A model generated the notes under the pieces. It saw nothing but the letters and a program-made list of their open reading frames with translations. It ran no database searches and was not told where the DNA came from. The translations under genes and the position numbers were made by a program. A DNA stretch of 34,723 bases from Planctomycetota bacterium (GTDB lineage Bacteria; Planctomycetota; UBA11346): positions 1 through 34,723 of the forward strand of contig JANQLF010000307.1 of NCBI GenBank assembly GCA_028280785.1. Reading direction: 5' to 3'. Positions 107 through 30,619 of this stretch are shown here, one piece after another (position 1 is the stretch's first letter; each line of letters opens with the position of its first letter).

Positions 107-1582
107 CTAATCCAATAAATACTGTGGATTTGCTCGTGACCAAACTTCGTGGGGGCCGTAACCAACTTCGCGCCCCCACGGCGTCATGACTTGCAAACAC
201 TGTTGTTTTTCAGCAGCAGCAGTACTAACGCGTTCCGCTGTCCAACCATCAGCACCCAATAATCCATGTAATTCTTGAATTAATTCCTGATGCTGTGGTT
301 CATCAATGAGATTATGCTGTTCCTCTGGATCATCATCGAGGTTATGCAGCACTGCTTCCCAATTATCATACCAAATATATTTCCATGGACCGCGCTGAAC
401 CAGGCGACTGGTTGGCAGACCCATTAAATGTATCGCTAATTCTGAATAAATCGGACGCTCAGCCCACGCCGCTTGCTCCTGTAACTCGGGATCTGCTAAA
501 AGCGGTGTTAAAGCATCGCCATCTTGCAATGGTAACGACTGCGCTCCAGCTAATGCGCAGATACTCGGCGCTAAATCAACTAATGAACAGGTCTGCTTAA
601 TTTGTTGCGCACTTTTAATGTTTAAAAGGTCAGCATCTTCAACCTGCAAAGGCGCAATTATAAATGGCACACGTAATGACGGCCTAAAAAAGGTACCCTT
701 CCCTAACATGCCATGATCACAGGCGTGCTCACCGTGGTCAGAAGTATAAATAATTATCGTTGGTCCAGACAATTGTTCGGCAGCAGTGCAAATACGCCCG
801 ATAAAATCATCCGTCGTTTCAATTAAGGCCGCATAATTTGCACGGACCTTGCGCGTATTATCCGCACCAAAAGGATGACCACTGTGATCACTCACTAAAT
901 CGACATGCGGATGGGCATTTTCCGGCTTGCTAATGGGCTGGTCGTTTATTGCAGCTAAACGATCTTCAACAGTTTGGTATTTAGTTTCTTCGGCATTAAA
1001 CGGGTGATGAGGGCTGTACCAACCAACCGTTAAAAATAATGGGCGTTCATCGTCACGCTCTTGTATAAAGCGCTCAGCAGCATTAGTGACATCGTCATCA
1101 TAAGCCGTGACAAAATTATCGCGCGGTCCTGCAAGTTCGGTTGCCTTTTTTAAATTAGACATCGTCGCTGGTAAATCTTCCTGGTCGACTATTGGACCGC
1201 CTGCGTAACAACGACAAATGTCACCGACCAAGCGTTTTTCATAGCCATGACGTTGATCGGCACCATTAAAATGCATGCGTCCTGCTAGGACACTTTCATA
1301 TCCAGCTAAGCCTAAGCTGTGAGCAATGGTCGGAATATCACTGCTCAGTGAATGCTCGTTAATAGTGATATCATTTCGAAATGGTTGACGCCCCGTTAAA
1401 AATGACATGCGCGATGGTCCGCATAAGGGATAATTACAAATCATATCGGTAAAACTAACACCCTGAGCAGCAAGCTTATCCATGTGCGGCGTCTTGGCGT
1501 GCTCGTCACCTAAAAAAGACATCCAATCACCACGGTGCTGGTCACTAACTAATAAAATTATGTTGGGTCGTTGTTCGCTCAT
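107..1582 (-). CDS. Type I sulfatase, choline-sulfatase-like subgroup, cytoplasmic
   Basis: Type I sulfatases hydrolyse sulfate esters using a formylglycine made from Cys or Ser in C/S-x-P-x-R. Here the motif is CGPSR with Cys54 as the modified residue (91-aa-scale spacing from the N-terminal metal motif SDQHRGD at 13-19 is normal). A GRMHFNG segment with DQRHGYE resembles choline-sulfatase relatives, and a TSDHGEH motif supplies the other metal ligands. At 491 aa the length is usual. The frame extends 18 codons upstream, but I chose the ATG at 1582 because MSEQRPNIILL is the classical sulfatase start. No signal peptide is visible, so it should act in the cytoplasm on imported oligosaccharides or monosaccharide sulfates. 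Its substrate is not predictable from the sequence alone. Confidence 0.9.
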   Translation of the reverse strand: MSEQRPNIILLVSDQHRGDWMSFLGDEHAKTPHMDKLAAQGVSFTDMICNYPLCGPSRMSFLTGRQPFRNDITINEHSLSSDIPTIAHSLGLAGYESVLAGRMHFNGADQRHGYEKRLVGDICRCYAGGPIVDQEDLPATMSNLKKATELAGPRDNFVTAYDDDVTNAAERFIQERDDERPLFLTVGWYSPHHPFNAEETKYQTVEDRLAAINDQPISKPENAHPHVDLVSDHSGHPFGADNTRKVRANYAALIETTDDFIGRICTAAEQLSGPTIIIYTSDHGEHACDHGMLGKGTFFRPSLRVPFIIAPLQVEDADLLNIKSAQQIKQTCSLVDLAPSICALAGAQSLPLQDGDALTPLLADPELQEQAAWAERPIYSELAIHLMGLPTSRLVQRGPWKYIWYDNWEAVLHNLDDDPEEQHNLIDEPQHQELIQELHGLLGADGWTAERVSTAAAEKQQCLQVMTPWGREVGYGPHEVWSRANPQYLLD

Positions 1583-1764
1583 AAGCTGAGTATGCGTGAG
1601 CAAGAATCCATGCAATTCGACACAATAGAAACACACAAAATTTGCCAGGCTACTTAGTTACACGCAAACCACTTGTTTATGCCGATCACGTCAGGACAAA
1701 ATGAAGTTCACCCTGGGACATGCGCAGCACGGCCAATGTCCTAGTCTCTTAAACTGGAGATTGT

Positions 1765-2814
1765 ATGCGCGCATTATTTTGTCCTCAGCCAGGCTCTTTG
1801 GAAATTCGTGATATTGCCACACCGAGTGTCGGAGCAGGCCAGGCATTAATACAAGTCGCACGTGCATCGGTGTGTGGAACCGACATTCATAAATACAGAG
1901 CTGAACAAAGTGAAAAACTTGCTGATGGTTCTGATATGATTGTTGGTCATGAGCCAGCTGGTTGGGTAGCTGCAGTTGGTGAAGGCGTGACCCATTTAAA
2001 ACTGGGACAACGTGTTTTAATTGCTGGTGTTTTTAGTTGTGGTGACTGCCATTTTTGCAGACAAGGCTATAATACCTGCTGCGAAGTCAGTCGCTGCGGT
2101 TTGCATTGGGATCACCATGGCTGCAATAGCGATTACACCTTAATTCCTGCGCAAAACGCAATTGCCCTCCCCGATGATTTATCGTTCGATGTCGCTGCTT
2201 TATTAACCTGTGCCGGTGGTACGGCGATAACCATTAATCAAGAATGCGCCGTAACAGCCGATGATGTTGTTGGTATTATTGGCCTCGGCCCAGTCGGTTT
2301 ATCAACCTTATTATTAGCTAAAGCTTATGGCGCTAAAGTTATTGGTATCGATTTAAATGAAGAACGTTTAGCACTTGCTGATGATTTAGGCTGCGATGTC
2401 TGCATTAATGGGAATGATGGCGATGTCGTCTCCAGCGTTCACCAAGTCAATAATGGCCGTGGCTGTGATGTGGTTGCCGAATGCGTTGGTTTAGCCGCAA
2501 CACAAAAACAAGCGGTTGCTATCAGTCGCATGCGCACGCGCATTGGCTTTGCTGGACTCGGTACACAAAACTACGATGACAATATTGCACTCAGTTTAAT
2601 TGATAAAAGCATTCATGGCATCGGAATTGCCGCGACACCAATTAAATATTTTCGTCCCATGGTCGAATTAGTTGCCAGTAAACAATTGGCCTTCGATAAA
2701 ATGATTCACAGTCATTACCCACTCGAACAAGCCAGCGACGCCTTTGCGGCGATGGAATCCGGTTGTCGTGGTAAAGTCCTTATCGATATCGCTGATGAGT
2801 ATACGCCACTGTAA
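1765..2814 (+). CDS. Zinc-dependent alcohol/polyol dehydrogenase (MDR family)
   Basis: A 349-aa medium-chain dehydrogenase of the sorbitol/threonine dehydrogenase type, which oxidises a secondary alcohol with NAD(P)+. Catalytic zinc ligands are Cys37 in SVCGTD and His62-Glu63 in VGHEP. The structural zinc loop has Cys92, Cys95, Cys98 and Cys106 with the standard C-x2-C-x2-C-x7-C spacing. The Rossmann turn GLGPVG lies near residue 176 and is followed by an acidic residue (IGIDLN), favouring NAD+. A ribosome site CTGGAGA lies at 1754-1760. It is divergent from the upstream sulfatase and followed by the FG-GAP gene, so it probably oxidises a sugar, polyol or uronate intermediate of this locus. 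The exact substrate is unknown. Confidence 0.9.
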   Translation: MRALFCPQPGSLEIRDIATPSVGAGQALIQVARASVCGTDIHKYRAEQSEKLADGSDMIVGHEPAGWVAAVGEGVTHLKLGQRVLIAGVFSCGDCHFCRQGYNTCCEVSRCGLHWDHHGCNSDYTLIPAQNAIALPDDLSFDVAALLTCAGGTAITINQECAVTADDVVGIIGLGPVGLSTLLLAKAYGAKVIGIDLNEERLALADDLGCDVCINGNDGDVVSSVHQVNNGRGCDVVAECVGLAATQKQAVAISRMRTRIGFAGLGTQNYDDNIALSLIDKSIHGIGIAATPIKYFRPMVELVASKQLAFDKMIHSHYPLEQASDAFAAMESGCRGKVLIDIADEYTPL

Positions 2815-2879
2815 CATTGGTTCAGTTTTTATTAAATATTCCCTAGACTGGATCTGCACTGCTCAAGAATAGCGGCGCT

Positions 2880-4244
2880 ATGACTCAATTAGAAACTGCT
2901 TCAGAAATCCTCCGTTCACACCCGTTACCTATGAATGCCAACACCGTCAGTGTTATGGCTGTTGGTGACTTAACTGGCGATGGTCAACTTGATACCGTTA
3001 TTAAACATCTGCAAGATGATCGCATTTTCTTAACAGCTTGCTCACATGATGGCGAAACATTGTGGTCATTTGATACCGGACTCCCGGCGAAAGGCGGTTG
3101 GGATGGCAATCCGCATCACTGCCCCTTTGTATGTTGGGATATTGATGGTGATGGGAACATAGAGGTCGCAGCACATAGTGCCGGTGATGCCTGGAATAAT
3201 ATTGATAAAGATTTTTATGATGTTGGTGCAGCCACTGGTGAATCATTAGTTATTTTAGATGGCAAAACTGGAGCCATTAAAAACGCATGTGCCTGGCCTG
3301 CCTGGTGTCCACGCGTCATGATGACGGTTGCCCACTGTGATGGATGGGATCACGCACCTTCTTTAGTTATTTGCGACGAAACCTATGGCCGTGAAATTGT
3401 CACGGTTATTAACGGCAAGGATTTATCGACACGCTGGCGCCAAGTCCAACGCCGACCAGCGGGACACAATGTTGATTGCGCCGATGTCGACGGCGATGGC
3501 AAACAAGAAATTATTATCGGTGGCATTTGTTATAATCCTGATGGCAGCATTTTATGGGAAGCCGAAGACTTCGGTCACACAGACATGTCCAAGCCTGCGA
3601 AAATAAATCCAGACTTACCAGGCCTGCAAACTTATTATTTAGTTGAAAGCGGTAATCCCGGTGTCTATGTCGTCGACCACCAAGGTAAAACATTATGGAA
3701 AGAAGATTTTCGCCATGCTCACTTTGGGTGGATTGGTAAGCAAGATTCATTACTAAACGGTCTCCAACCACACGCCGCTGAAGATGGTCGCGCTGAATAT
3801 GGCGCTCAAGCTGCGGGCATGCGTGAATCTGATCATTTTCCAATTTATAACCATAAAGGCGAATACTGGTGTAAACTCAGTGATCGTCAGCGTAAATCAT
3901 ACGTCCCAGTTGCTTGGTGCGGTGATGGCTTAACTGATTTTATCGACCGTAAACAAAAACGCATCGTACGCATGAACCAAGATGGTGAAGAAACCATACT
4001 TTCAGAAATTCCAAAAGGATTGCGCATTGGCCGTAATTTAATTTGCTACGCTGAAGGTGATGATCAACGCGAAAGCATCATTACCATTGATGAAGAAACC
4101 AATGAATTAATAGTGCTGCGCTGTTCTCAGGCACCTCAGGAAAAAATAATTCCTAAACGCAGCAATGCTTACCGCCACGACCGCTCACAGACCGGCAGTG
4201 GTTATTATATGTACTGCGCGTTTCACCAAGGCTGGGACCATTAG
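2880..4244 (+). CDS. FG-GAP/VCBS beta-propeller protein related to PL11 rhamnogalacturonan lyases
   Basis: A 454-aa protein with repeated calcium-binding loops: DLTGDGQLD at 30-38, DIDGDGNIE at 87-95 and DVDGDGKQE near 202-210. Each is followed by a hydrophobic strand and a 'DGETLW' or 'DGSILWE' turn. This loop spacing and the LDGKTG turn recall the PL11 rhamnogalacturonan lyase propeller. It is shorter than typical PL11 enzymes (about 600 aa) and has no signal peptide, so a cytoplasmic enzyme or sugar-binding propeller is possible. It lies 65 nt after the dehydrogenase, probably in the same transcript, and abuts the converging AraC gene. No strong ribosome site precedes the ATG. I infer glycan processing; catalytic activity cannot be confirmed by eye. 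Confidence 0.7.
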   Translation: MTQLETASEILRSHPLPMNANTVSVMAVGDLTGDGQLDTVIKHLQDDRIFLTACSHDGETLWSFDTGLPAKGGWDGNPHHCPFVCWDIDGDGNIEVAAHSAGDAWNNIDKDFYDVGAATGESLVILDGKTGAIKNACAWPAWCPRVMMTVAHCDGWDHAPSLVICDETYGREIVTVINGKDLSTRWRQVQRRPAGHNVDCADVDGDGKQEIIIGGICYNPDGSILWEAEDFGHTDMSKPAKINPDLPGLQTYYLVESGNPGVYVVDHQGKTLWKEDFRHAHFGWIGKQDSLLNGLQPHAAEDGRAEYGAQAAGMRESDHFPIYNHKGEYWCKLSDRQRKSYVPVAWCGDGLTDFIDRKQKRIVRMNQDGEETILSEIPKGLRIGRNLICYAEGDDQRESIITIDEETNELIVLRCSQAPQEKIIPKRSNAYRHDRSQTGSGYYMYCAFHQGWDH

Positions 4245-5126
4245 TTATTGATCGCGCATGCGAAATTGATGCGGTGAACAATCATAGGCTTCCTGAAAAC
4301 GCCGCTGTAAATGTGCATCATCGGTAAAACCCCAGTTATGGGCGATTGCTTTAATTGGCTTTTCGGATTTTAATAATTCCTGCGCCACACCATTTAAACG
4401 AAAGCGCAATGAAAACTGCGCAAAGCTAATACCCATGACCCGTTGAAAATGCTTGCTGAAAATATTTCGGCTCATCGCACACGATTCGGCCGCCTTTTCT
4501 ACACTGACCGCATAGCGTGTCGAAAAAACTAATTCAATGGCTTGACTAATACGTGAAAAATAATCGCTACTGTCTTTTTGTTTTGCTTCACTTGGCTGCC
4601 AATCCTCACACATACACAGCAATAATTCTAATAAGACAAAGCGTAAACGCATTTTTCCCGGCGCTGATTCATCTGCTTCGGCGAGTATATCCTTACAACG
4701 CTGAGCAAGCGCAATGAGGTCGGGAATACGTTCCCGCGCTACTTGTGGCCGCTGTGCTGGCGCACAGCGAAATGGAGCGAGCCATGGAAAATGCGGGTCC
4801 TCTGGTAGACGCAACGAAGCCAGCAAGGGCGGCCAAATAGTCAGCACGAGGTCTTCGGTCCCCGGCTTGGTCACGCGATAACCATGCGGCTCACAAACTC
4901 CACAAAACCATATACCACCTGTACTTAGCGTATCTTCATGATCACGATAGAGTCGCTGCATCTCACCTGAAATGACCACCCCTAATTCCAGTGGATAGTG
5001 AAAATCAAAGCTCACATCAGTGCAGGTCTCATGCTCCGTACAATGGCCCTCAACCGGTCGCTCCTCCGAGAGCGATAAGTTCATCTGCTTAATGTCGCGA
5101 TTGTCCCAAGTCAGCTGCATGCACAT
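4245..5126 (-). CDS. AraC-family transcriptional regulator
   Basis: The C-terminal ~100 residues form the double helix-turn-helix of AraC/XylS regulators: KAAESCAMSRNIFSKHFQRV is the first helix pair, and IAHNWGFTDDAHLQRRFQEA plus CSPHQFR the second. The N-terminal ~170 residues look like a cupin-type sugar-binding domain (ELGVVISGEM, PHGYRV). The open frame reaches 5195, but its extension overlaps an inverted repeat that looks like an operator. I therefore prefer the ATG at 5126 (or 5120); neither has a clear ribosome site. It is divergent from the GH4 operon and likely activates it in response to a pathway sugar. The inducer is unknown. Confidence 0.88.
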   Translation of the reverse strand: MCMQLTWDNRDIKQMNLSLSEERPVEGHCTEHETCTDVSFDFHYPLELGVVISGEMQRLYRDHEDTLSTGGIWFCGVCEPHGYRVTKPGTEDLVLTIWPPLLASLRLPEDPHFPWLAPFRCAPAQRPQVARERIPDLIALAQRCKDILAEADESAPGKMRLRFVLLELLLCMCEDWQPSEAKQKDSSDYFSRISQAIELVFSTRYAVSVEKAAESCAMSRNIFSKHFQRVMGISFAQFSLRFRLNGVAQELLKSEKPIKAIAHNWGFTDDAHLQRRFQEAYDCSPHQFRMRDQ

Positions 5127-5141
5127 GATCGTACAAAACCA

Positions 5142-5195
5142 GTGCAAATATACAATGAAGGATTGGCCCGATACAACACGATGTATTTGCTGCAC
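5142..5195. promoter_or_regulatory. Candidate AraC-type operator (spaced inverted repeat)
   Basis: Left arm GTGCAAATATACA (5142-5154) and right arm TGTATTTGCTGCAC (5182-5195) are imperfect inverted copies: the right arm reads GTGCAGCAAATACA on the other strand. They lie between the divergent AraC gene and the GH4 operon. The right arm overlaps the -35 of the operon's candidate promoter, the usual position for an AraC-type activator. Assignment to this regulator is inference. Confidence 0.45.
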
Positions 5196-5215
5196 TTAGA
5201 TGCCTTAGCAATAAT
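5187..5215 (+). promoter_or_regulatory. Candidate sigma70-type promoter of the GH4 operon
   Basis: TTGCTG at 5187-5192 and AATAAT at 5210-5215 are separated by 17 bp. Transcription would start near 5222, leaving a short leader that carries GGAG just before the ATG at 5243. The weak -35 overlapping an inverted repeat suggests activation. Confidence 0.45.
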
Positions 5216-5242
5216 GGGCTCATCAATTATTCGGAGTGATCT

Positions 5243-6640
5243 ATGTCAGAGCACGAAAAAGTCGTCATGATCGGTGCTGGTTCTATTTCTTTTACGCGCG
5301 GTTTAATGCACGATATGATTTATCATAAATGGAATTGCACGATCGCTTTAGTCGACATCGATGAAAATGCTTTACGCATCATTGAACGTATCGTGAAAAA
5401 AATGGTCGAAAAATGCAAAGCCTCTATTCAAGTCGAAGCACATACCGATCGGCGCCAAGCATTAACTGATGCCAGTATTGTTATTTGCACTGTTGGCGTT
5501 GGTGGTCGACGTGCTTGGGAGCAGGACGTATTTATTCCTCGCCGTTACGGTATTTATCAGCCTGTCGGTGATTCGGTTATGCCAGGCGGTTCATCACGAG
5601 CGCTGCGCATGATTCATGCAATGATTGGCATTGCGCGTGATGTAGAAGAACTCGCACCGGATGCCTTGTTTTTTAATTACGGCAATCCAATGGCACCAGT
5701 ATGCAGCGCCGTTAATAAATCAGTTGGCATTCCGATGACTGGATTATGTCATGGTGTTTTTCATGTAGCCAATCATCTTGCAAAACTATTAAACATTGAT
5801 GAATCAAGACTCGACTATGACGCTGTCGGTATGAATCATTTAACCTGGTTCACCAAAGTCAGCATCGATGGCCAAGATGCCATGCCACAATTAATAGAAA
5901 AAGCTGATTATTATCTCAATACATTCATCAACGACAGTGAGCGCGGCAAATGTTTTGCCGAAGCAGGTACCTCAGAGGAGAATGATCAACAATTTAATCA
6001 CCCCCTCAGCTGGGAACTGCTGAAAACCTTTAAAGCCTTTCCAGCCGTGCTTGATCGCCACGTCATGGAATTCTTTCCGCAATGTTTTGCCAAAGAACAT
6101 TCCTATTACGGACAAACACCAGGGATCGATGCCTTTTCCTTTGAACAGTGTATCGAATGGGGTGATAAAGATTTCGAAAGAATGTGTAGCATTGCTGACA
6201 GCGATGACGATTTACCTGATTCCTTTATCACCTTCACCGGTGGTGAACACGAACAGGTTATTTCTATAATTAACAGCATTCGCAATGACGACCATGCTAC
6301 TTACTCAGTTAATTTACCCAACACCATCCAATTAGATAACGTCCCACAAGGCATCATTCTCGAGTCACCAGCACAAGCGACCAAGAGTGGCTTATGCCCA
6401 CAAGCCATGGGCAGCTTAGATGCCGGTATTTATGGAACTCTGGCTACTCGCTTTCAATGGGTTGAGTGCATTGTTGAAGCCGCGTTAAAAGGTGATCGCG
6501 ATTTATTTGTACAAGCACTGATTATTGACGGTGCGGTCACTTCGATCGACATGGCTTGCAATTTAGCCGACGATTTATTAGCAGCACAAGCTGCCTATCT
6601 CCCGCAATTTAAACAGCGCATCGTGGAGGCTGTTTCATGA
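5243..6640 (+). CDS. GH4 family NAD-dependent glycosidase, CHGV subgroup (alpha-glucuronidase-like)
   Basis: GH4 enzymes cleave glycosides by a redox mechanism needing NAD+ and a divalent metal. The Rossmann N-terminus is GAGSISFTRG (residues 11-20), followed by a VDIDE acidic strand end, CTVGVGG and the GDSVMPGG loop. Metal ligands are Cys169-His170 in GLCHGV and His199 in GMNHLTW. As established for GH4, CHGx marks alpha-glucuronidases, CHEV alpha-galacturonidases and CHSV alpha-glucosidases or galactosidases, so a uronide substrate is favoured. At 465 aa the length is normal. GGAG precedes the ATG. It opens the operon and overlaps the SIS gene by ATGA. No signal peptide is present, so it works on imported oligosaccharides. 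Confidence 0.9.
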   Translation: MSEHEKVVMIGAGSISFTRGLMHDMIYHKWNCTIALVDIDENALRIIERIVKKMVEKCKASIQVEAHTDRRQALTDASIVICTVGVGGRRAWEQDVFIPRRYGIYQPVGDSVMPGGSSRALRMIHAMIGIARDVEELAPDALFFNYGNPMAPVCSAVNKSVGIPMTGLCHGVFHVANHLAKLLNIDESRLDYDAVGMNHLTWFTKVSIDGQDAMPQLIEKADYYLNTFINDSERGKCFAEAGTSEENDQQFNHPLSWELLKTFKAFPAVLDRHVMEFFPQCFAKEHSYYGQTPGIDAFSFEQCIEWGDKDFERMCSIADSDDDLPDSFITFTGGEHEQVISIINSIRNDDHATYSVNLPNTIQLDNVPQGIILESPAQATKSGLCPQAMGSLDAGIYGTLATRFQWVECIVEAALKGDRDLFVQALIIDGAVTSIDMACNLADDLLAAQAAYLPQFKQRIVEAVS

Positions 6641-7674
6641 CCTCAATAACAGAACAAGAAATTCGCGGCCAAGCTAGTGTAATCGAGAACGCTGTTTCTA
6701 TTTTCGAACTACACCTTGATGCCATTAGCAAACTCTATCAGCAGCGTCAATGCACATCGATATGCTTTATTGGTTCTGGTTCCGGTTATTGCCTTGGCCA
6801 ATCAGCGGCACTCAGCATGCAGATCCACGGCGGTATCAATGCTCAGGCCATTCCTGCTGGTGACTTGCTCATGCATTTCGATAATTACGCACCGTTATTA
6901 AAAAATGCACTTGTCGTATGCAGTACACGTTCGGGTAGTACCAGCGAAGTACTACGCTGCCTCGAACTATGCAATGCCCATTTTATTCCAAGCATTGCAC
7001 TTTGTGGCAGCGCCGATGCGCCGATTAAACAACATGTCGATCTCTACATCGAATGTGCCGGCCTCGCCGAAGAATCTGTCTGTCAAACGCGCGCCATCAC
7101 CAGTTTTTATATTCTACACCTGATGCTTGCCGCTCATTTTGGTAAGCACGCACATATCATTAATGAATTACAGCAAACTATTGCCAATGCACCAACCTTT
7201 ATCGATCATTACTTTGATCAAATAAATAGAATAATTGAATTAAAACATTGGGAATCATTTATTGTATTAGCCGATGGTGAATTATGGGGCCTAGCTGATG
7301 AGGCATCAATGGCTGCGAAAGAAATGGCTCAGATTTACAGCAATACCTACCACGTCCTTGATCTCAGACACGGACCCATGGTTTGCGTGAATGAAAAATC
7401 ATTGGTATTGATGAATGGCATTTCTTCACACCAGGAATTACAAGATAATCTAATAGATGATATCACTAAGAAGGGCGCATCCATTATTAGCTTGGGTCCA
7501 AGTAGCTTTGAACAAACGGCATTGCATTTAAAAACACCTGCCCTTGTTCATCAAGCCGTACAAGGTGTCTATCTAATTGTTGCTGCACAACTAATTGCCC
7601 TGCATCTTGCCGAACAGCGTGATCTTAACCCAGATGCACCCCCTGCATTAAATCCTTGGATTGCCTTAGCATGA
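6637..7674 (+). CDS. Double-SIS sugar isomerase/deaminase (AgaS/GlmS-like)
   Basis: The 345-aa protein has two SIS folds, as in the isomerase half of GlmS and in AgaS. SIS1 (about 30-170) carries GSGSGY and STRSGSTSEV, the phosphosugar-binding loop. SIS2 (about 190-320) carries EMAQIYS and LRHGPM, a GlmS/AgaS signature, and the C-terminus NPDAPPALNPW resembles the NPD.PR segment of AgaS. Such enzymes convert aldose or amino-aldose 6-phosphates to ketose 6-phosphates, sometimes with loss of ammonia. GGAGG at 6625-6629 precedes an ATG that overlaps the GH4 stop. The neighbouring kinases and aldolase support a galactosamine-6-phosphate to tagatose-6-phosphate type step, but a different aldose phosphate is possible. 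Confidence 0.85.
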   Translation: MTSITEQEIRGQASVIENAVSIFELHLDAISKLYQQRQCTSICFIGSGSGYCLGQSAALSMQIHGGINAQAIPAGDLLMHFDNYAPLLKNALVVCSTRSGSTSEVLRCLELCNAHFIPSIALCGSADAPIKQHVDLYIECAGLAEESVCQTRAITSFYILHLMLAAHFGKHAHIINELQQTIANAPTFIDHYFDQINRIIELKHWESFIVLADGELWGLADEASMAAKEMAQIYSNTYHVLDLRHGPMVCVNEKSLVLMNGISSHQELQDNLIDDITKKGASIISLGPSSFEQTALHLKTPALVHQAVQGVYLIVAAQLIALHLAEQRDLNPDAPPALNPWIALA

Positions 7675-8612
7675 AACACTACGATATCATTAGTGTCGCT
7701 GACATGTGCGTCGATTTAATTGTTAGCGGTAATGTGCGCCCTCAATTTTCACAAATTGAACAATTAGTTGATCAGTATCATGTATGTATGGGTGGTTCGA
7801 CTAATATCTTTGCCAGCCAATATGCCAAGCTTGGCGGTAGCATTGCTGTTATTGGTAAAGTAGGACAAGATACTTTTGGTCATACGCTCCTCGACCAGAT
7901 CCAAGCATCAGGCATTAGAACTGAATTTATTCAACAAGATGAACGATTAAATACGGGTCTTGGCATTCATTTAGATGAAATTACCGATCGAGCTATTTTA
8001 ACATTTCTTGGCAGCATTGATGCCGTGCACCTGCATGATTTATGCGAATCGCACATCGAACGCTGCGATCATTGGCATATCGCTAGTTACTTTTTACTTG
8101 AATCATTACAAGCATTTTGGCCCGAGTGGTGTAGACGTCTACGCCAAGCAGGCAAAACGATATCATTGGATTCGAACTGGGCACCGGATGGTAATTGGGA
8201 ACAGGTCAAAGCACTGTTACCCCTTGTTGATGTTTTTTTACCTAATGAGCAAGAAGCATTAGCGATTAGTGGCTGTATTAACATTGAAGATGCAGCACGT
8301 TTCCTCGCGCAATTAACACCAACGGTAGTTATTAAATGTGGTGCTGATGGTGCCATTGCCTGTGTTCATGGTGAATTAACTCGCTGTTCTTCGCTGCAAG
8401 CAAGCGCACCAATAAAAGACTGCATTGGTGCAGGTGATAGTTTTGACGGCGGTTTTTTATACGCGTGGCTACGCAATCGCTCAACCCATGCCTGCCTGAG
8501 CTTAGCCAATGCTTGTGGCGTAGCGAATATTATTGGTACGGGTGGCTGTGAAACGCAGTTAGAACAAACAAGATTTCAGGAGCATCGTCATGATACTGTG
8601 CTGCTGTCCTAA
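7671..8612 (+). CDS. PfkB-family sugar kinase (ribokinase-like)
   Basis: A 313-aa carbohydrate kinase. The N-terminal substrate motif is MGGSTNIFASQYAKLGG with IGKVGQDTFG following, and the C-terminal catalytic signature DCIGAGDSFDGGF spans residues 250-262 with Asp256 as the base. I chose the ATG at 7671 because it overlaps the SIS stop as ATGA; the frame itself extends five codons further upstream. The N-terminus DIISVADMCVDLI is ribokinase-like rather than 1-phosphofructokinase-like. It therefore more likely phosphorylates the free sugar released by the glycosidase, leaving the bisphosphate-forming step to the next gene. Sugar specificity is not visible. Confidence 0.88.
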   Translation: MKHYDIISVADMCVDLIVSGNVRPQFSQIEQLVDQYHVCMGGSTNIFASQYAKLGGSIAVIGKVGQDTFGHTLLDQIQASGIRTEFIQQDERLNTGLGIHLDEITDRAILTFLGSIDAVHLHDLCESHIERCDHWHIASYFLLESLQAFWPEWCRRLRQAGKTISLDSNWAPDGNWEQVKALLPLVDVFLPNEQEALAISGCINIEDAARFLAQLTPTVVIKCGADGAIACVHGELTRCSSLQASAPIKDCIGAGDSFDGGFLYAWLRNRSTHACLSLANACGVANIIGTGGCETQLEQTRFQEHRHDTVLLS

Positions 8613-9516
8613 TCTTTCAGTCGATACCCGGGTACACATTGATGCGCTTCAAATCGGTGCGGTTAATCGAGCGACACATACGGAAGAATTCCCAGGCGGC
8701 AAAGGCGTCCACGTTGCGTTAGCTGCGCATGCATTAGGTGCAGATGTCTGCTTACTTGGCATCTGGGGCGGAAGTGCCGGTGCGTTTATTCGCCAAAACT
8801 GTGAAGCACGCGGTATTCGCTGCATAGGTCCAAACATTAATCAAGAAAACCGACGCTGCCTAAGTTTTACCGACAATGACACTGAAGTATTAATGCCTGG
8901 GCCTCAGATCGATGAATGCATTTTTGATGAATATCTAGCCATTTTAAAAACCGAAGCACAAGCAGCAGACCTTGTCAGCATCAGTGGCTCGTGGCCGCAA
9001 GGCGCACCAAGTGATGCCTATGCACAATGTGTTCAGCTGCTGAATGCATTAGAGAAAGCACACCTCATCGATTGTAGTGGTGAACAATTAACCCAAGCAT
9101 TGGAAGCAAAGCCCTATGCAGTGCATTGTAATTCGGCAGAAATAAAAGATTGCAGCCATAAAACAAATGTTGCAGAACAATTAGATTATTTGAAATCTTT
9201 CTGTCAGCTCAGCGTACTGACCTGCGGCAGCGAAGGATTATTTCTCGCAAAAAACGATACCGTTGTGCATAGCCTCTGCTCAATCGAACACGTTATCAGT
9301 AGCGTTGGTTGTGGCGATGCGGTGTGCGCTGCTGTTGTCGTCTCCCTCGCCAAACAATCAACACTTTCAGAAATGGCATCCTTGGCCAGCGCCTGTGGCG
9401 CAGCTAACTGTTTGAATGCCGACCTTGGCATGATTCATTCATCTGATGTTGAGCGATTCATTACAAGTGCCGAAACCAAAATCATCAAGCAGGAATATAC
9501 TCATGCATTATCTTGA
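8590..9516 (+). CDS. PfkB-family kinase, tagatose-6-phosphate/1-phosphofructokinase type
   Basis: A 308-aa kinase of the LacC/FruK branch: the N-terminus MILCCCPNLSVDTRVHID and FPGGKGVHVALAAHALG are typical of enzymes making ketose 1,6-bisphosphates. The usual GAGD is GCGD here (Gly240-Cys241-Gly242-Asp243), which keeps the anion hole and catalytic Asp. The gene starts 23 bp inside the preceding kinase, with AGGAG at 8579-8583 supporting the ATG. Its position between isomerase and aldolase implies it phosphorylates the ketose 6-phosphate made by the SIS protein. It is unusually Cys-rich for a cytosolic kinase. Tagatose versus fructose or another ketose cannot be distinguished by eye. Confidence 0.87.
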   Translation: MILCCCPNLSVDTRVHIDALQIGAVNRATHTEEFPGGKGVHVALAAHALGADVCLLGIWGGSAGAFIRQNCEARGIRCIGPNINQENRRCLSFTDNDTEVLMPGPQIDECIFDEYLAILKTEAQAADLVSISGSWPQGAPSDAYAQCVQLLNALEKAHLIDCSGEQLTQALEAKPYAVHCNSAEIKDCSHKTNVAEQLDYLKSFCQLSVLTCGSEGLFLAKNDTVVHSLCSIEHVISSVGCGDAVCAAVVVSLAKQSTLSEMASLASACGAANCLNADLGMIHSSDVERFITSAETKIIKQEYTHALS

Positions 9517-10348
9517 TTTTTTACGTTCACAACGTGAACACGGTAAGGGCGTCCTCGCCTGCAATTTTTACAATGCCGAAACACTCAAGGGCGTTTTAGC
9601 TGCTGCAGCCTCTTTACAGTCACCAATAATTTTACAAACCTCTCCAAGCACGATCGACTATCTTGGTTTACAATTATGCGTCTCTATGGCGCGCAGTGCA
9701 GCAGCCGCTTATGATGTCTGCATTTATTTACATTTAGACCATTGTCATGATTTGGAATTACTCGCTGCCTGCGTTGATGCTGGTTATGATTCGGTCATGA
9801 TCGACGCCAGCGAAGCAAATTTTGACGAGAATATTCAAAAAACTCGCGCGACGATTCAAATAGCTCGTGCTAAAAATGTAGCCGTTGAAGCTGAACTTGG
9901 TTATATACCCAAACTTGGACAAGCAGCACTTGAAACCGATGGATTAACCAGTGCCGAGGAAGCTGCAGCATTTGTCGCAGCAACAAACGTTGACACCCTC
10001 GCTGTTTCCATTGGTACAGCACATGGTTTCTATAAACAAGCACCGCTTCTTGATATACCACGCTTAGAACGCATTCGACAGCAAGTCGATACACCTTTAG
10101 TCCTTCATGGGGGTTCTGGCGTTGCTCCGGAACAATGGCAAGCCGCTATCGATCATGGCATTGTAAAAATAAATTTCGCAACTGAAATTAAGAATGCATT
10201 TATGCAGACGATTAAACAACAACTCGCGGACAGTGACAATATCGACTTACGTCAATCATTCCCCGTCGGTATGTATGCAGTCCAAACACTTGTCACTGAA
10301 AAAATGCTCGTTTGTGATAACCGCACCGCAGATGCAACTGTAGCCTAA
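9503..10348 (+). CDS. Class II ketose-1,6-bisphosphate aldolase (GatY/KbaY-like)
   Basis: A 281-aa zinc aldolase, the length of GatY/KbaY rather than the longer FbaA. HLDHCHD carries the catalytic Asp79 and metal ligand His80. DSVMIDASE, EAELGYIPKLG, His174 in GTAHGFYK, His202 in LHGGSGV and KINFATEIKN follow in the usual order. It would split tagatose- or fructose-1,6-bisphosphate to glycerone phosphate and glyceraldehyde 3-phosphate. The ATG at 9503 follows AGGA at 9491 and lies 14 bp inside the kinase gene; the frame extends 19 codons further upstream but lacks aldolase character. No KbaZ/GatZ partner is present. The gene ends the operon, one base from the converging sulfatase stop. Confidence 0.9.
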   Translation: MHYLDFLRSQREHGKGVLACNFYNAETLKGVLAAAASLQSPIILQTSPSTIDYLGLQLCVSMARSAAAAYDVCIYLHLDHCHDLELLAACVDAGYDSVMIDASEANFDENIQKTRATIQIARAKNVAVEAELGYIPKLGQAALETDGLTSAEEAAAFVAATNVDTLAVSIGTAHGFYKQAPLLDIPRLERIRQQVDTPLVLHGGSGVAPEQWQAAIDHGIVKINFATEIKNAFMQTIKQQLADSDNIDLRQSFPVGMYAVQTLVTEKMLVCDNRTADATVA

Positions 10349-10349
10349 T

Positions 10350-11900
10350 TTATTTTATACCCACGAATGGACCGTAGTTGGCCATGGCACAAGGCATGAA
10401 GCCATTGAAGAACATGTCTTCCTCAATTTGCATCTGTCGCCACATTTTCGCCATGTATTCTTTACGCACTGGTTCTAAATTCGGATGTAATTTTGGCCAT
10501 GGCGTATAGGAATCCCGATCAGCAACGACACCCTGATGTGGATCGTCTTGCTGCATGCGATTTGGATGCGCTAAATTAGTCATCTCATAAGGGTCTGCAT
10601 GCAGGTCATAGAGCTCATCGAAATCAAAGGCATTATAAACGTATTTATAATGATCATCGAAAATAATACGCTGAGTAAAATAATTCTCATTACCATTACA
10701 CTGACAGAGTAAAGCATCGCGCCAGTCTGCTGTCGATTCATTCAAAAAAGGCGCTAAGGACTGGCCTGACATAATCTGAGACGAAGGTGCATCACAAATG
10801 TCATTCAGAGTTGGTGCAAAGTCAGCCAAGCTCACCAAAGCATCAACCTCTCGCCCAGGATTGGCAATACCATTTGGCCAACGCACTAAGGCAGGGACAT
10901 GATAGGCTTCACGGAATGGTGGAATACCCATGAAATTCATACCATGGGCGAAATTATAATCGCCATGATCAGCGACGAAAATAACAATCGTATTATCCGC
11001 TTGCCCTGTTGCCTCTAAGGCATCGAGCAACAATCCAAAGTAATGGTCTTCAAGCGAGCAGTTAGCCCAGTAATGAATCATCGATTGTTTAATTTCTTCT
11101 TCGCTTAATTGAGCGAGGTTTTGATAGCGCATACGCTGATAAATGTTGGGCTTGTCATGCATTTTATCATCAAAGCTTGGTGGTAGCTCAACATCATCGA
11201 CCTTATACATTTCTAAAAATTCGCGCAGGCATTCCGAGTTACCTTCCATATCGGTGCTGACATAAAGGCACCACGGCTCAGCCTCGTTTTTTAATTGCTT
11301 TAAACAATCGATCCCAGGTTTGACTGCTTTTTGATACCAAAACATATCTTCAATATGCTCACGGACTTGACCGTAGGTCGTCCACGATGGCCAGCCGGGT
11401 CGCAACATTTCTCCGGCACAGCGCTGAGCTGGAACCTGATCACGATGTTCACCATAATAATTAACGACGTCTTCTTTAAATTGTTTTTCTAAGACACCTT
11501 GGTCAGCAACATACGGCTGTTCGTAAAGTGAGACCTCTTTCCAACCACGATCTTTCGGTGTTTCTTCAGATGAGATATGATATTTACCACTAAAATATAA
11601 ATTATAGCCAACGGCCTCAAGATCCTCTGAGAAACAGCGCACGTCAGGATTAACAAACTTTTGATGGGCAGTTGATGTGCAGACATTATTAAAAACACCG
11701 TGACGCGATGGATATAAACCAGTCATAAACGTTGCACGTGATGGGCAACAATGTGGCGATGGCGTATATGCTTGACTAAAATTGATCCCTTCTTTTTTAA
11801 AGGCATCTAAACGCGGTGTCAGACAAGGGTGATCATCGCGTACAATCTCAGCCTGCACTTCATCAGGCATAAAAATAAGAACGTTTGGTTTATTGCTCAT
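10350..11900 (-). CDS. Type I sulfatase, cytoplasmic
   Basis: A 516-aa sulfatase. The motif CCPSR at residues 51-55 places the formylglycine on Cys51. N-terminal metal ligand Asp13 lies in MPDEVQ, and the VADHGDYN motif gives the second metal pair. The GLYPSRHG segment follows as usual. GGAA before the ATG is a modest ribosome site. No signal peptide is seen, so like the sulfatase at the start of the window it should act inside the cell. The two share the fold but differ in active-site context (CCPSR against CGPSR), implying different substrates. The gene converges on the GH4 operon with a one-base gap. No formylglycine-generating enzyme or anSME is visible in the window. Confidence 0.93.
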   Translation of the reverse strand: MSNKPNVLIFMPDEVQAEIVRDDHPCLTPRLDAFKKEGINFSQAYTPSPHCCPSRATFMTGLYPSRHGVFNNVCTSTAHQKFVNPDVRCFSEDLEAVGYNLYFSGKYHISSEETPKDRGWKEVSLYEQPYVADQGVLEKQFKEDVVNYYGEHRDQVPAQRCAGEMLRPGWPSWTTYGQVREHIEDMFWYQKAVKPGIDCLKQLKNEAEPWCLYVSTDMEGNSECLREFLEMYKVDDVELPPSFDDKMHDKPNIYQRMRYQNLAQLSEEEIKQSMIHYWANCSLEDHYFGLLLDALEATGQADNTIVIFVADHGDYNFAHGMNFMGIPPFREAYHVPALVRWPNGIANPGREVDALVSLADFAPTLNDICDAPSSQIMSGQSLAPFLNESTADWRDALLCQCNGNENYFTQRIIFDDHYKYVYNAFDFDELYDLHADPYEMTNLAHPNRMQQDDPHQGVVADRDSYTPWPKLHPNLEPVRKEYMAKMWRQMQIEEDMFFNGFMPCAMANYGPFVGIK

Positions 11901-15276: not shown

Positions 15277-15313
15277 TTGACTTAATTATAGATATCTATA
15301 TCCTTTTATCAAG
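15277..15313. promoter_or_regulatory. Divergent promoter region with a GATAT-N3-TATCC box
   Basis: The box is at 15291-15303, and TATAGATATCTATA at 15287-15300 approximates a perfect palindrome. For the + strand, TTGACT at 15277-15282 and TATCCT at 15299-15304 are 16 bp apart, so the box would cover the -10. For the - strand, TATAAT occupies 15285-15290. A TATCAAG half-site follows at 15308-15314. Similar arrangements occur at 19841 and 30592. Confidence 0.5.
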
Positions 15314-15329
15314 TAATAAGGGGATAGCC

Positions 15330-16370
15330 ATGACCAACATCGAAGAACGTACTATGATTCCAATCCAACGGTTTCGTAACATATTGGGATCTCTTGAGTT
15401 ACCTGAACACAGTGTTGAAGAGCTGTATTGGCTCCGCTTTGCCGCTCAAGCTGCTATTCTGCGCCCCGAAAAGCCAGAAGACATTGCCAGCTTGATTCGT
15501 AAAACAGCTTCGTTGCTTCACGAAAATACTCCGTGGTACGAATCCCTGTCCACCGCGGCGCGATTTGCGGTTGCAGCCTTACTGGTCCAGAACCACGACA
15601 GTCCCTGTGATTTCATAAAAGGCCATCGTCATATTAGTAATTTATTTCGTCAGCAAGAATTACGCCCCGGTGGTATGCATGAAACGCTATCGGTTGTAAT
15701 AATGCGTATGAATGCCGATAAACGCCGCATTCACCATCAAGATATTACGCGCTTTAAAGCTATTTATGAAGAGATGAAGCATTTTCATTGGTGGTTAACC
15801 GGACCTGATGACTTTCCTGCCGTAGCTGCTTTAAGTCACTTAGACGGTTCTTCTAAAGACGTCATAACGCAAACCGAACGCATGTACCAATATCTTGTCG
15901 ATTCAGGTTTTAAATCTGGTGACAATTTACAAAGCGCTGCAAATTTATTACCTTTGCTCGAAATGGATCCCGGAGCAGCTGCAACCAGGTTCATCGGACT
16001 GCGCGAACTAGTAAAAACAGAGAGCGACAACACAGTTCCTTACCACTACGACAGCCTCTTACCGCTCGTGATGTTGAAACAAGATGTTGAACACGTGATC
16101 CAAATGACATTAGCTATTTATAAAGAACTAGAAATGAGTAGTGAAAATCAATTTGGCGCCTCAACCTTTGGCATTGCTGCTGATTTGTGCTTCTTAGATC
16201 TCATCCGCTATGACAAAGATTTAAATAGCCGTGACGATTTTGACGCAGTCAAAGGAATGCTCAGTGATATACATCGCTTCCATATAATTACCGCAGCGAC
16301 ATTAAGCCGCTTTGATCCTACAGCAGAAGGATTATTCGTCAAAGACACCTACGAAGGTTGGTATATTTAA
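15330..16370 (+). CDS. DUF4003-like protein
   Basis: A 346-aa, helix-rich soluble protein with no signal peptide. The segments LTGPDDFPAVAAL and a following QYLVDSGFKSGDNLQ resemble the DUF4003 family, whose function I do not know; the match is by recall of the motif. The N-terminus is amphipathic helical. AAGGGG precedes the ATG at 15330. The hemerythrin-like gene follows after 30 bp, so the two probably form an operon transcribed away from the universal stress gene. Function not assigned; the context implies a redox or stress role. Confidence 0.55.
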   Translation: MTNIEERTMIPIQRFRNILGSLELPEHSVEELYWLRFAAQAAILRPEKPEDIASLIRKTASLLHENTPWYESLSTAARFAVAALLVQNHDSPCDFIKGHRHISNLFRQQELRPGGMHETLSVVIMRMNADKRRIHHQDITRFKAIYEEMKHFHWWLTGPDDFPAVAALSHLDGSSKDVITQTERMYQYLVDSGFKSGDNLQSAANLLPLLEMDPGAAATRFIGLRELVKTESDNTVPYHYDSLLPLVMLKQDVEHVIQMTLAIYKELEMSSENQFGASTFGIAADLCFLDLIRYDKDLNSRDDFDAVKGMLSDIHRFHIITAATLSRFDPTAEGLFVKDTYEGWYI

Positions 16371-18063: not shown

Positions 18064-18212
18064 AGGTCCTCCTTTCGGGATACAGGTGTATTATAAGACC
18101 AATAGCTCTAAGTCCTGCACTCATACCATATTATAGTGATGATATGCATCGTAGTTATGCACGCTCAGGCACTCGAGACATGCTTGTCATCCCTCCCAAG
18201 TGCGTGTAAATC

Positions 18213-18659
18213 ATGCCCATGCAATCGCTGTCATTTAATCAGCAAATAGAAGCCGAGCTCAGTGAGCGCGAATGGCATATGTTCGAATCGCTCAAGCAAT
18301 GGACCGAGCAACAGCGCGACGCCTGGCGCAGCGCATGGCGTAGCTGGCGACAAAAGCAATTATCGGCAATTCACAACGGCCAAGCACAAGTGCAGATTCA
18401 CATTTCATCTGAATGCATCGGTTGTTTCGATTGCGAAATCATGTGTCCTGAAATATTTTACATTACTAAAAAACGCTCGCGCATTAAAAAAGAAGCACTC
18501 GAATTAAATGCGCAACAAAAGGCCTTTATCAATCCAAAAATCATGAGTATTTGTTGGAGTGATTTACAATTAGCTAAAGAAGCATGCCCGGTTGAAGCAA
18601 TTAAACTTCAGACCCTAGATGCAAGTGACCCTGAACCGACACCCGAGCTATTTAATTAG
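18213..18659 (+). CDS. Single-cluster [4Fe-4S] ferredoxin with helical N-terminal extension
   Basis: A 148-aa protein. The first ~60 residues are predicted helical, rich in Trp, Arg, Glu and Gln. The C-terminal part is a ferredoxin: Cys68, Cys71, Cys74 and Cys78 in CIGCFDCEIMCPE, and Cys125 in ACPVEAI. As in Thermotoga-type ferredoxins, three proximal Cys and one distal Cys hold the [4Fe-4S], while Cys78 and the Cys in SICWSD could form a disulfide. No ribosome site is visible before the ATG (18213 or 18219). It lies eight bases before the Rrf2-like gene, so the two are very likely one operon. Partner unknown. Confidence 0.8.
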   Translation: MPMQSLSFNQQIEAELSEREWHMFESLKQWTEQQRDAWRSAWRSWRQKQLSAIHNGQAQVQIHISSECIGCFDCEIMCPEIFYITKKRSRIKKEALELNAQQKAFINPKIMSICWSDLQLAKEACPVEAIKLQTLDASDPEPTPELFN

Positions 18660-18667
18660 GAAATACA

Positions 18668-19084
18668 ATGTTTGCTGAATGCGATGAATTAAGCCTACGT
18701 GTTATAGTCAGTGTTGCAGACGGTGGTTTGAACAGCACAGACATTGAAACCAAGACAAAAATCCCAGCAAGTAAATTAGAGGGCATATGCTCGTTGTTAA
18801 CCGATGCAAAACTCATTAAGCAAAGCGATGGTGTTTTTACTCTCTGCGATGACCCGAATGAATTAACGCTTTACGATGCACTTAATCGCATCACGAACTG
18901 GCAACGTTGGCCCAGTTGCCCTGTCGATATCGACGATCACTCTGATGATTTATGTCCATTACACCGACGCCTAGAAAATATTTCAGTATTTGTAGAACGT
19001 CAGTTACGTGGATCTACAGTCGCTGCATTGTTAAGCGATCCGGAACACTCCAGACCTCTGTGCAATAAACTTCAAGAGTCCTAA
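18668..19084 (+). CDS. Rrf2-like protein with degenerate wing
   Basis: A 138-aa paralogue of the canonical Rrf2 gene at 19242-19676, based on the shared sensory part: SCPVDI..DDLCPLHRRLE (Cys84, Cys96, His99) and the C-terminal RPLC. The N-terminal third has weaker helix-turn-helix character and the wing motif GxxGGF is reduced to DGVF. AGGA precedes the ATG, and it follows the ferredoxin gene by eight bases. It may be a redox sensor that dimerises with or titrates the canonical protein, or binds a different site. Whether it binds DNA is open. Confidence 0.8.
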   Translation: MFAECDELSLRVIVSVADGGLNSTDIETKTKIPASKLEGICSLLTDAKLIKQSDGVFTLCDDPNELTLYDALNRITNWQRWPSCPVDIDDHSDDLCPLHRRLENISVFVERQLRGSTVAALLSDPEHSRPLCNKLQES

Positions 19085-19241: not shown

Positions 19242-19676
19242 TTAATCTTTGATCCTACCTGAACAGAGTGGTTTATTGGCATTCTTTTCTGCCAAGAGGC
19301 GAGCAATTGTCGTTGAAGTTAACTGTTTCTCGACCATTGCGATCAGATTATCGAGGCGGCGGTGCAGTGGACATAAGTCCGTTCCGTGGTCGCCGATTTC
19401 GAGTGGACAGGAATTAATGCGTGGCAGTGGCTCAAGAATGCGGACGACATCAAGCATCGTGATGTCCTTTGGCTTGCTCACGAGCTTGAATCCACCATGC
19501 AAACCGCGTTGCGAACTGACTAAACCACCTTTGGTCAGTTGTTGCATGACCTTAGCGAGGTAACCAGTCGGCACCTGGGTATGCTCAGAGAGCTGTTCAG
19601 TGGTCATTGGCTGCGGATGCTTATCTGCCAGGGTGACTATGGCACGGAGGGCGTATTCGGTGGTCTGCGAAATCAT
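19242..19676 (-). CDS. Rrf2-family transcriptional regulator (redox/iron-sulfur sensing type)
   Basis: A 144-aa protein with the canonical Rrf2 start (QTTEYALRAIVTLA), a helix-turn-helix around residues 25-55 and a GLHGGFKL wing at 58-65. The sensory loop has Cys90, Cys102 and His105 in NSCPLEI..LCPLHRRLD, with Cys138 at the C-terminus. NsrR, IscR and RsrR use Cys-ligated clusters in this loop, but the C-x11-C-x2-H spacing here is not the classical NsrR or IscR pattern. A GATATC-AA-GATATA element lies 19 bp upstream, overlapping a candidate promoter, which suggests autoregulation. No good ribosome site precedes the ATG. Confidence 0.9.
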   Translation of the reverse strand: MISQTTEYALRAIVTLADKHPQPMTTEQLSEHTQVPTGYLAKVMQQLTKGGLVSSQRGLHGGFKLVSKPKDITMLDVVRILEPLPRINSCPLEIGDHGTDLCPLHRRLDNLIAMVEKQLTSTTIARLLAEKNANKPLCSGRIKD

Positions 19677-19694
19677 AGGTTACTCGGCTATTCG

Positions 19695-19715
19695 GATATC
19701 AAGATATACTATTCT
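19695..19715. promoter_or_regulatory. Candidate Rrf2 operator upstream of its own gene
   Basis: GATATCAAGATATA (19695-19708) is a near palindrome sharing 13 identical bases with 19834-19846. On the minus strand, TTGCAT and a GTATAT-like -10 are 17 bp apart and this element overlaps the -10. 19703-19715 weakly matches GATAT-N3-TATCC. Confidence 0.4.
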
Positions 19716-19826: not shown

Positions 19827-19857
19827 TAATTATATATCAAGATATATTTATCCTTTA
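19827..19857. promoter_or_regulatory. GATAT-N3-TATCC box with adjoining palindrome
   Basis: The box is at 19841-19853. TATATCAAGATATA at 19833-19846 is a perfect palindrome with a two-base centre. On the minus strand TATAAT lies beside it. The location is 40-50 bp upstream of the hemerythrin promoter and 150 bp from the Rrf2 start. Confidence 0.5.
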
Positions 19858-19873
19858 TATGCGGCATTTTAAC

Positions 19874-19907: not shown

Positions 19908-20351
19908 ATGTCAGAACTCACCTGGCACCCAATTTACAACATTGGTATTCACGAAATTGACCTCCAACACAAAACCTTATTTGCCATGTGCAACAACCTC
20001 TTCACGCTCATTGATCAAGGGGCAGAACAACACAAGGTCGAAGAACTCATCAGCGACTTCTTAGGTTATCTGACCTATCATAACAGTTTCGAAGAAAAAT
20101 TGATGAAAGTTTTCGAATATCCGAATTTAAAAACGCACTTGATAGAGCACCATGCCTTTGTAGCGAAAATTCGCGATCTCTTAAAACCACATGACGATTC
20201 TTTTAATTTTGAAGCATCCGCCCAGCAGCGCGTCTTGGAATCACTAACCGAACATATCAGTGGTGATGATCTTGAACTCGGCTCTTTTTTAGCGAAGCAT
20301 ATACCAGAAAATGTGAATCCACGCTCATTTGTGTTTAGCGAACAACGCTAG
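19908..20351 (+). CDS. Bacteriohemerythrin
   Basis: A 147-aa four-helix O2-binding di-iron protein. Ligands occur in the family order: His21 in DLQHKTLF, His and Glu in YHNSFEEKLM, the pair in HLIEHHAF and the HISGDD segment with HxxxxD spacing. W6 in LTWHP and IG at 12-13 are also family marks. It could store or sense O2 or NO for the nearby cbb3 oxidase. A TATAAT ends seven bases before the ATG, so the mRNA may be leaderless. Its stop shares CTAG with the converging ccsA. Confidence 0.9.
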   Translation: MSELTWHPIYNIGIHEIDLQHKTLFAMCNNLFTLIDQGAEQHKVEELISDFLGYLTYHNSFEEKLMKVFEYPNLKTHLIEHHAFVAKIRDLLKPHDDSFNFEASAQQRVLESLTEHISGDDLELGSFLAKHIPENVNPRSFVFSEQR

Positions 20352-24739: not shown

Positions 24740-25513
24740 TCAATCCATACTCGCGTAAACACGCACTGGGATATTCAAACGGCGATCAGCTAAATCTCGC
24801 CAATAATACAATTCTGCTTCTGGCACAGGATAACAGATATGCTTCCCTCCACAGGGTCGATCAATCGTGTACATCTGAATTTCAAGGACATTCATTTGAC
24901 TTACCTGATCCAACCAACGCTGTGCGAGCTCACTGAACTGACGATCGTTTTCCTCGCGATAAATAAACATCGATTGTAGACGCAATTGCTTTATACCCGC
25001 AAACATGGCTAGACGTAATTTTCGTTCCTCACCGGTCATCGATCGCCAAGCACCATCTCGAACACCACAGTCCCACTTAACGTAAATGCGAATACCCAAG
25101 TCATCTATGCAATCTCGCAATTCGGCATCTTTTAGTGCATCACCATTGGTCAAAATAACTAAGGGACGTTTAAATCGCTTGGCAAAAGCATCCATTTTAC
25201 GCAAGGCTGGCACGATATCTGGGTGATCCAAATTTTCTCCAGAACCTGAACAACAGATCACTTCGGCATCACCAGGATGAGAACGCGCCAAAGCCTCGTC
25301 TAATGCATCTAAGCTTGCCCATTCACCAGCTTTGGACTGCGGCCAGTGTCCGAGCTGGCAATACGGACAAGACCACTGACAAGAACGCACGCCGGGATAC
25401 GACATGCTAATGCCAAAACTCCGCCCAAAACGACGACTATTGACTGGACCAAAGACCAAATCGATAGGCTCGTGATCATGAGCTACATCAGAACGTTTAA
25501 TAAACTGCGTCAT
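24740..25513 (-). CDS. Radical SAM protein (COG0731-like)
   Basis: A 257-aa radical SAM protein. FGPVNSRRFGRSFGISM is the N-terminal signature of COG0731 (wyosine-synthesis relatives), and C45-x3-C49-x2-C52 (CQWSCPYC) binds the catalytic cluster. SGSGENLDHP and LTNGDAL follow as expected. No auxiliary-cluster domain is evident. It sits between ccoH and the TPR gene; a role in modifying a cofactor or protein of the oxidase is conceivable but not known. The neighbouring gap to ccoH is six bases. Confidence 0.78.
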   Translation of the reverse strand: MTQFIKRSDVAHDHEPIDLVFGPVNSRRFGRSFGISMSYPGVRSCQWSCPYCQLGHWPQSKAGEWASLDALDEALARSHPGDAEVICCSGSGENLDHPDIVPALRKMDAFAKRFKRPLVILTNGDALKDAELRDCIDDLGIRIYVKWDCGVRDGAWRSMTGEERKLRLAMFAGIKQLRLQSMFIYREENDRQFSELAQRWLDQVSQMNVLEIQMYTIDRPCGGKHICYPVPEAELYYWRDLADRRLNIPVRVYASMD

Positions 25514-30570: not shown

Positions 30571-30619
30571 GACTTGAATTATAGAATAGAGGATATATAT
30601 ATCCATTAATGATCAAGTC
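30571..30619. promoter_or_regulatory. Divergent cbb3 promoter region with a palindromic operator
   Basis: GGATATATATATCC (30591-30604) is a perfect 14-bp palindrome and contains GATAT-N3-TATCC. GACTTGA (30571-30577) and TCAAGTC (30613-30619) form an outer inverted repeat. For the + strand, TTGAAT and TATATA lie 16 bp apart with the -10 inside the palindrome. The minus strand has TATAAT at 30578-30583. Confidence 0.55.

Follow-up and report, generated by a model that had tools for sequence, protein, structure and literature searches.

The window analysed here is a contig of 34,723 nucleotides, and the locus of interest comprises three genes near its middle. P0001 (18213–18659, + strand, 148 aa) encodes a single-cluster [4Fe-4S] ferredoxin and is followed, after a spacing of 8 bases (18660–18667), by P0002 (18668–19084, + strand, 138 aa), which encodes an Rrf2-derived protein with a deleted wing loop. 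Direct reading of the junction (18655–18670, + strand; TTAGGAAATACAATG) revealed a Shine-Dalgarno-like AGGA that overlaps the ferredoxin stop codon. P0003, the gene for a canonical Rrf2 regulator (19242–19676, − strand, 144 aa), is convergent with the pair. P0001 and P0002 are presumably co-transcribed, and translational coupling from the first to the second is probable. Our re-reading of the sequence bore out the coordinates, the strands, the 8-base gap and the residues Cys84, Cys96 and His99 given in the initial annotation. A dispersed palindromic repeat with 31-nt arms, 90% complementary, occupies the space between the convergent 3′ ends of P0002 and P0003 (19094–19220, no strand assigned). 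It contains GAACCACAGATGGACACAGAT; its core has 29 matches in the genome against 0 for a reversed control, and several of these form facing pairs ~100–165 bp apart.

P0001 scores 32.7 bits against Pfam Fer4_13, above the cut-off of 24.5, and this score, combined with the CxxCxxC...CP ligands C68, C71, C74 and C125, identifies it as a single-cluster ferredoxin. Its cysteines are arranged as C68xxC71xxC74, C78P, C114 and C125P, with C78 and C114 lying beyond the cluster set. The protein carries a Trp-rich N-terminal extension of ~58 residues that has no match among 58 related genomes, where P0001 as a whole matches generic Fer4 domains alone. No match was found in 392 genomes of the phylum at E ≤ 1e-8, in phage families or in plasmids, and no ferredoxin near the relatives' Rrf2 genes is like P0001. 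A single-sequence structure model was poor (pLDDT 58) and was used for helix propensity alone.

P0002 and P0003 are the only full-length Rrf2 matches in their own genome. P0002 falls below both curated family cut-offs, marginally so for Rrf2 PF02082 (29.9 bits; cut-off 30) and clearly for TIGR00738 (28; cut-off 73.3). By structure prediction it nevertheless has the Rrf2 fold (AF2 pLDDT 89.5): Foldseek found 34 PDB structures that match it at E ≤ 0.001, with RsrR and CymR at the top and IscR and NsrR also among them. Its reading frame is intact and its codon statistics are normal.

Conservation in P0002 was scored against 110 canonical sequences, with conserved defined as at least 90%. Retention is uneven (Fisher p = 0.017): of the conserved residues, 11 of 13 survive in the sensor half but 10 of 24 in the DNA-binding half. 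Those retained include E7, L10, R11, R80, C84, P85, H91, L95, C96, L98, H99, E110, P130 and L131, and C132 (81% conserved) is kept as well. All candidate Fe-S ligands, E7, C84, H91, C96 and H99, are present.

The losses fall in helix 1, the recognition helix and the wing. Helix 1 is changed at S3, Q4, T5, Y8 and A9, and the recognition helix has lost its Tyr and Lys (K36 and G39 instead) and its Gln (now S42); the helix-1 SQT and helix-3 K/Q that are gone are 94–99% conserved in the canonical set. The helix 3/wing motif of the family, Lx3Gx6Gx2GGx2L (PMC9338935), is absent, with L44, G55 and L59 alone left, the first G replaced by K48 and the GG deleted. The wing itself reads DGV---F for RGLHGGF, a 3-residue deletion as read from a single metagenome-assembled contig. 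Structures of NsrR and IscR place the wing Arg in the minor groove, and in IscR the wing glycines contact DNA (PMC9338935); in P0002 this Arg has become Asp54. Net charge of the DNA-binding half is −7, against a canonical mean of +2.0 and minimum of −2. Since the GxxGG wing is present in 166 of 166 canonical sequences examined, and conservation is skewed between the halves, loss of the P0002 wing is not a chance observation. The initial annotation had described a lost GGF wing: the wing loop and its GG are indeed gone, but the F, the first G and the beta-hairpin stay, with strands 50–53 and 56–59 joined by a two-residue turn in the model. Sequence and model alike give good support for P0002 as an Rrf2-derived sensor that has given up DNA binding of the usual kind.

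P0003, by contrast with its neighbor, is canonical. It scores 100 bits against PF02082 and 108.9 against TIGR00738 (cut-off 73.3), and carries E7, C90, H97, C102 and H105 together with an intact HTH and wing. From the upstream regions of 114 P0003-type genes, nearly all from other genomes, we derived a palindromic operator, TGGATaTtaAtATCCA (consensus AAAcTGGATaTtaAtATCCAgTTT), that occurs in 76 of these regions against 1.3 after shuffling. The window holds just four sites above 13 bits, where 0.2 would be expected; each lies in a promoter, and the result stands when the window is excluded from the matrix. These predicted operators, given without strand, lie in P0003's own promoter (19689–19712; 13.9 bits); 49 bp 5′ of a hemerythrin gene at 19908–20351 (19835–19858; 14.9 bits, 14.4 with the window left out); between ccoNO of the cbb3 oxidase and a divergent DsbD_2-family gene (30586–30609; 19.2 bits, 18.9 left out); and between usp and divergent DUF4003-hemerythrin genes (15285–15308; 18.7 bits, 18.4 left out).

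Beyond the window, the operator adjoins RIC, NnrS and NarK genes in the same genome, each above its curated cut-off, and also occurs near genes for cytochromes c and for a molybdoenzyme that is NapA-like but scores below cut-offs; in relatives it lies 5′ of genes for NorB-type NO reductase and RIC/ScdA hemerythrins. The 24-bp model is weak genome-wide, with single matches at E 0.28–5, so the sites outside the window (loci L266, L267, L268 and L269) rest on the type of the adjacent gene. Because the operator stands beside NO and nitrate genes, P0003 is predicted to be an NO/nitrate-responsive regulator, also of the cbb3 oxidase. At the level of prediction, its targets match the NO/nitrate regulon expected of NsrR: RIC, NnrS, NarK, a NapA-like enzyme, cbb3 and hemerythrins, with NorB in relatives. 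The DUF4003 gene (15330–16370), which lies 5′ of a hemerythrin gene under a predicted operator and also adjoins a P0003 relative at L128 and L186, is a candidate new NO-response gene.

The 5′ region of the ferredoxin-P0002 operon (18064–18212, + strand) holds no predicted P0003 operator. Its best score, 4.4 bits, is within background, and we rejected P0003 control of the pair through the derived operator; a half-site-like CTTGTCATCC near 18190 likewise scores at background level.

Three further observations concern the window or the genome at large. One operator match, among the strongest genome-wide (L265:2504–2527), lies 5′ of a URO-D-family methyltransferase gene whose link to NO is not evident. 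Within the cbb3/cytochrome maturation cluster, 24740–25513 encodes a radical-SAM-like protein with no confident family match. By eye, sulfatase-like, sugar kinase, SIS-domain and aldolase-like genes with an AraC-like regulator at 107–11900 resemble a sugar-sulfate catabolic cluster.

The ferredoxin-P0002 pair is so far from one genome alone. Orthologues of P0002 number 0 in 58 relatives and 0 in 392 genomes of the phylum, and its matches in other genomes are winged P0003-type proteins. A scan of genome contigs with P0002 as sole query likewise returned zero orthologues; an alignment-based contig scan was seeded by HTH stretches missing from P0002 and could retrieve canonical relatives only. 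Phage families gave zero matches, and plasmids distant Deinococcus Rrf2 proteins alone. In the relatives G009, G021 and G005 a P0003-type gene lies near cbb3 genes, and the pair is absent there. Conservation of the three genes together across genomes, which the initial annotation had proposed as a check, failed to appear, the pair being absent from all other genomes searched (58 relatives and 392 from the phylum).

Trees give P0002 a very long branch, about 4–7.6 substitutions per site, and an ambiguous placement; a clade uniting P0002 and P0003 is weakly disfavored (AU p = 0.036). With placement ambiguous and the clade at that value, a local duplication of P0003 is no more than a possible origin. 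When 110 sequences are compared with P0002 over the variable columns of its sensor half, none matches better than P0003, which is first or tied for first; over the variable columns of the DNA-binding half P0003 ranks 73 of 110. The sensor-half excess, modest and in regions picked post hoc, fits a duplicate with a constrained sensor half.

In the NsrR of Streptomyces coelicolor, three Cys from one subunit and Asp8 from its partner bind the cluster, and Asp8 forms a bridge with Arg12 (PMC5411485). In P0002 as in P0003, E7 and R11 align with this pair, and a mixed dimer could for that reason hold clusters across subunits. The anatomy of the two proteins, the selective loss in P0002 and the predicted regulon of P0003 are established by computation; cluster binding, heterodimerization and the role of the ferredoxin are what we infer. 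Our preferred reading, held tentatively and with somewhat less than even confidence, is that P0002, disabled in DNA binding, acts as a partner or modulator of P0003, while the ferredoxin serves the cluster as redox partner. P0003, bearing a cluster, would control NO/nitrate metabolism and the cbb3 oxidase. P0002 would be a fast-diverging Rrf2 paralogue that has lost its DNA surface and retains the cluster loop, the Glu7-Arg11 cross-subunit position and the dimer helix. It most likely does not bind operators by itself, and would tune P0003 post-translationally through mixed dimers in which only one of the two arms is competent for DNA and each subunit lends ligands to the other's cluster. Alternatively, it might act by competition for clusters or for NO. 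The ferredoxin, translated along with P0002, would set the redox state of the cluster. Stated most fully, with P0002 a cluster-bearing anti-regulator that has lost DNA binding and pairs in mixed dimers with a regulator of the Rrf2 family responsive to NO, and a dedicated ferredoxin that tunes the redox state of a shared cluster, the proposal is rather unlikely. Modulation of the neighboring regulator by P0002, as the initial annotation suggested, is plausible given the retained E7/R11, Cys/His loop and dimer helix and the P0003-like sensor columns. Of its two roles for the ferredoxin, that of redox partner draws on operon position, and nothing specific points to a cluster donor.

P0002 may instead act independently of P0003, outside transcription control and with the ferredoxin as its partner, as a homodimer that senses redox state through an Fe-S cluster or thiols or serves as an electron-carrier module. 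It shares its operon with the ferredoxin rather than with P0003, without a P0003 operator; the ferredoxin bears its own novel N-terminal extension, and every candidate ligand is retained. Against this stand a sensor half nearer to P0003 than to nearly all other relatives and the adjacent, convergent placement of the two genes, and we consider independent action doubtful. P0002 could also remain a DNA-binding regulator whose remodelled recognition helix (SKLEG) reads a new operator without wing contacts. The HTH fold is kept in the model with high confidence, which means that altered DNA binding may persist, and Lys at position 36 could touch phosphate; the negative charge of the domain, the Arg-to-Asp change in the wing and the disappearance of the GxxGG wing, helix-1 SQT and helix-3 K/Q make this a rather improbable outcome. 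That P0002 is a functionless, decaying duplicate briefly retained behind the ferredoxin gene would suit its long branch and its absence elsewhere, but the intact frame, normal codon statistics, SD-like site and a sensor half selectively conserved where decay would be uniform leave it equally improbable.

If P0002 does modulate P0003, the preferred reading would add a post-translational layer to an Fe-S regulator, made from the regulator's own fold. A text search of the open literature found no DNA-binding-disabled Rrf2 protein and no Rrf2 heterodimer with such a role. The NO/nitrate/cbb3 regulon predicted for the P0003 clade, in its own and related genomes, stands apart from the ferredoxin-P0002 finding: the predicted operator links a widespread Rrf2 clade to NO reductase, RIC, NnrS and cbb3 oxidase genes.

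Among known systems, P0003 can be compared with NsrR of S. coelicolor and E. coli, with which it shares the Rrf2 fold and a cross-subunit carboxylate with its paired Arg. NsrR regulons hold NO and nitrate genes (PMC1274295), and the predicted P0003 regulon resembles them in NorB, RIC/YtfE, NnrS and NarK. The loop ligands differ, however, with two Cys (C90, C102) plus H97/H105 in the P0003 clade against three Cys in NsrR, as do the operators, TGGATaTtaAtATCCA against gATGyAT-N5-ATrCATc, and P0003 scores only 58 on the NsrR model NF008240 (cut-off 182). P0003 is thus predicted to act like NsrR yet falls outside it by Cys count, operator and cut-off; P0002 departs further from NsrR in additionally missing the parts that grip DNA. 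RsrR of Streptomyces venezuelae is the closest solved structure to P0003 by sequence and the top fold match of P0002; it has an N-terminal Glu and a pair of Cys in the loop, but it binds DNA and keeps the wing that P0002 has lost. IscR shares the Rrf2 fold, and the CxxH spacing of P0003 (C102-H105) resembles its C104-H107; it differs in its three Cys, its retained wing and its control of Fe-S assembly. In eukaryotes, Id proteins are HLH dominant-negative partners of transcription factors. Should the P0002–P0003 heterodimer be real, it would follow the same logic, pairing with a subunit whose DNA-binding part does not function, in a protein unrelated to Id.
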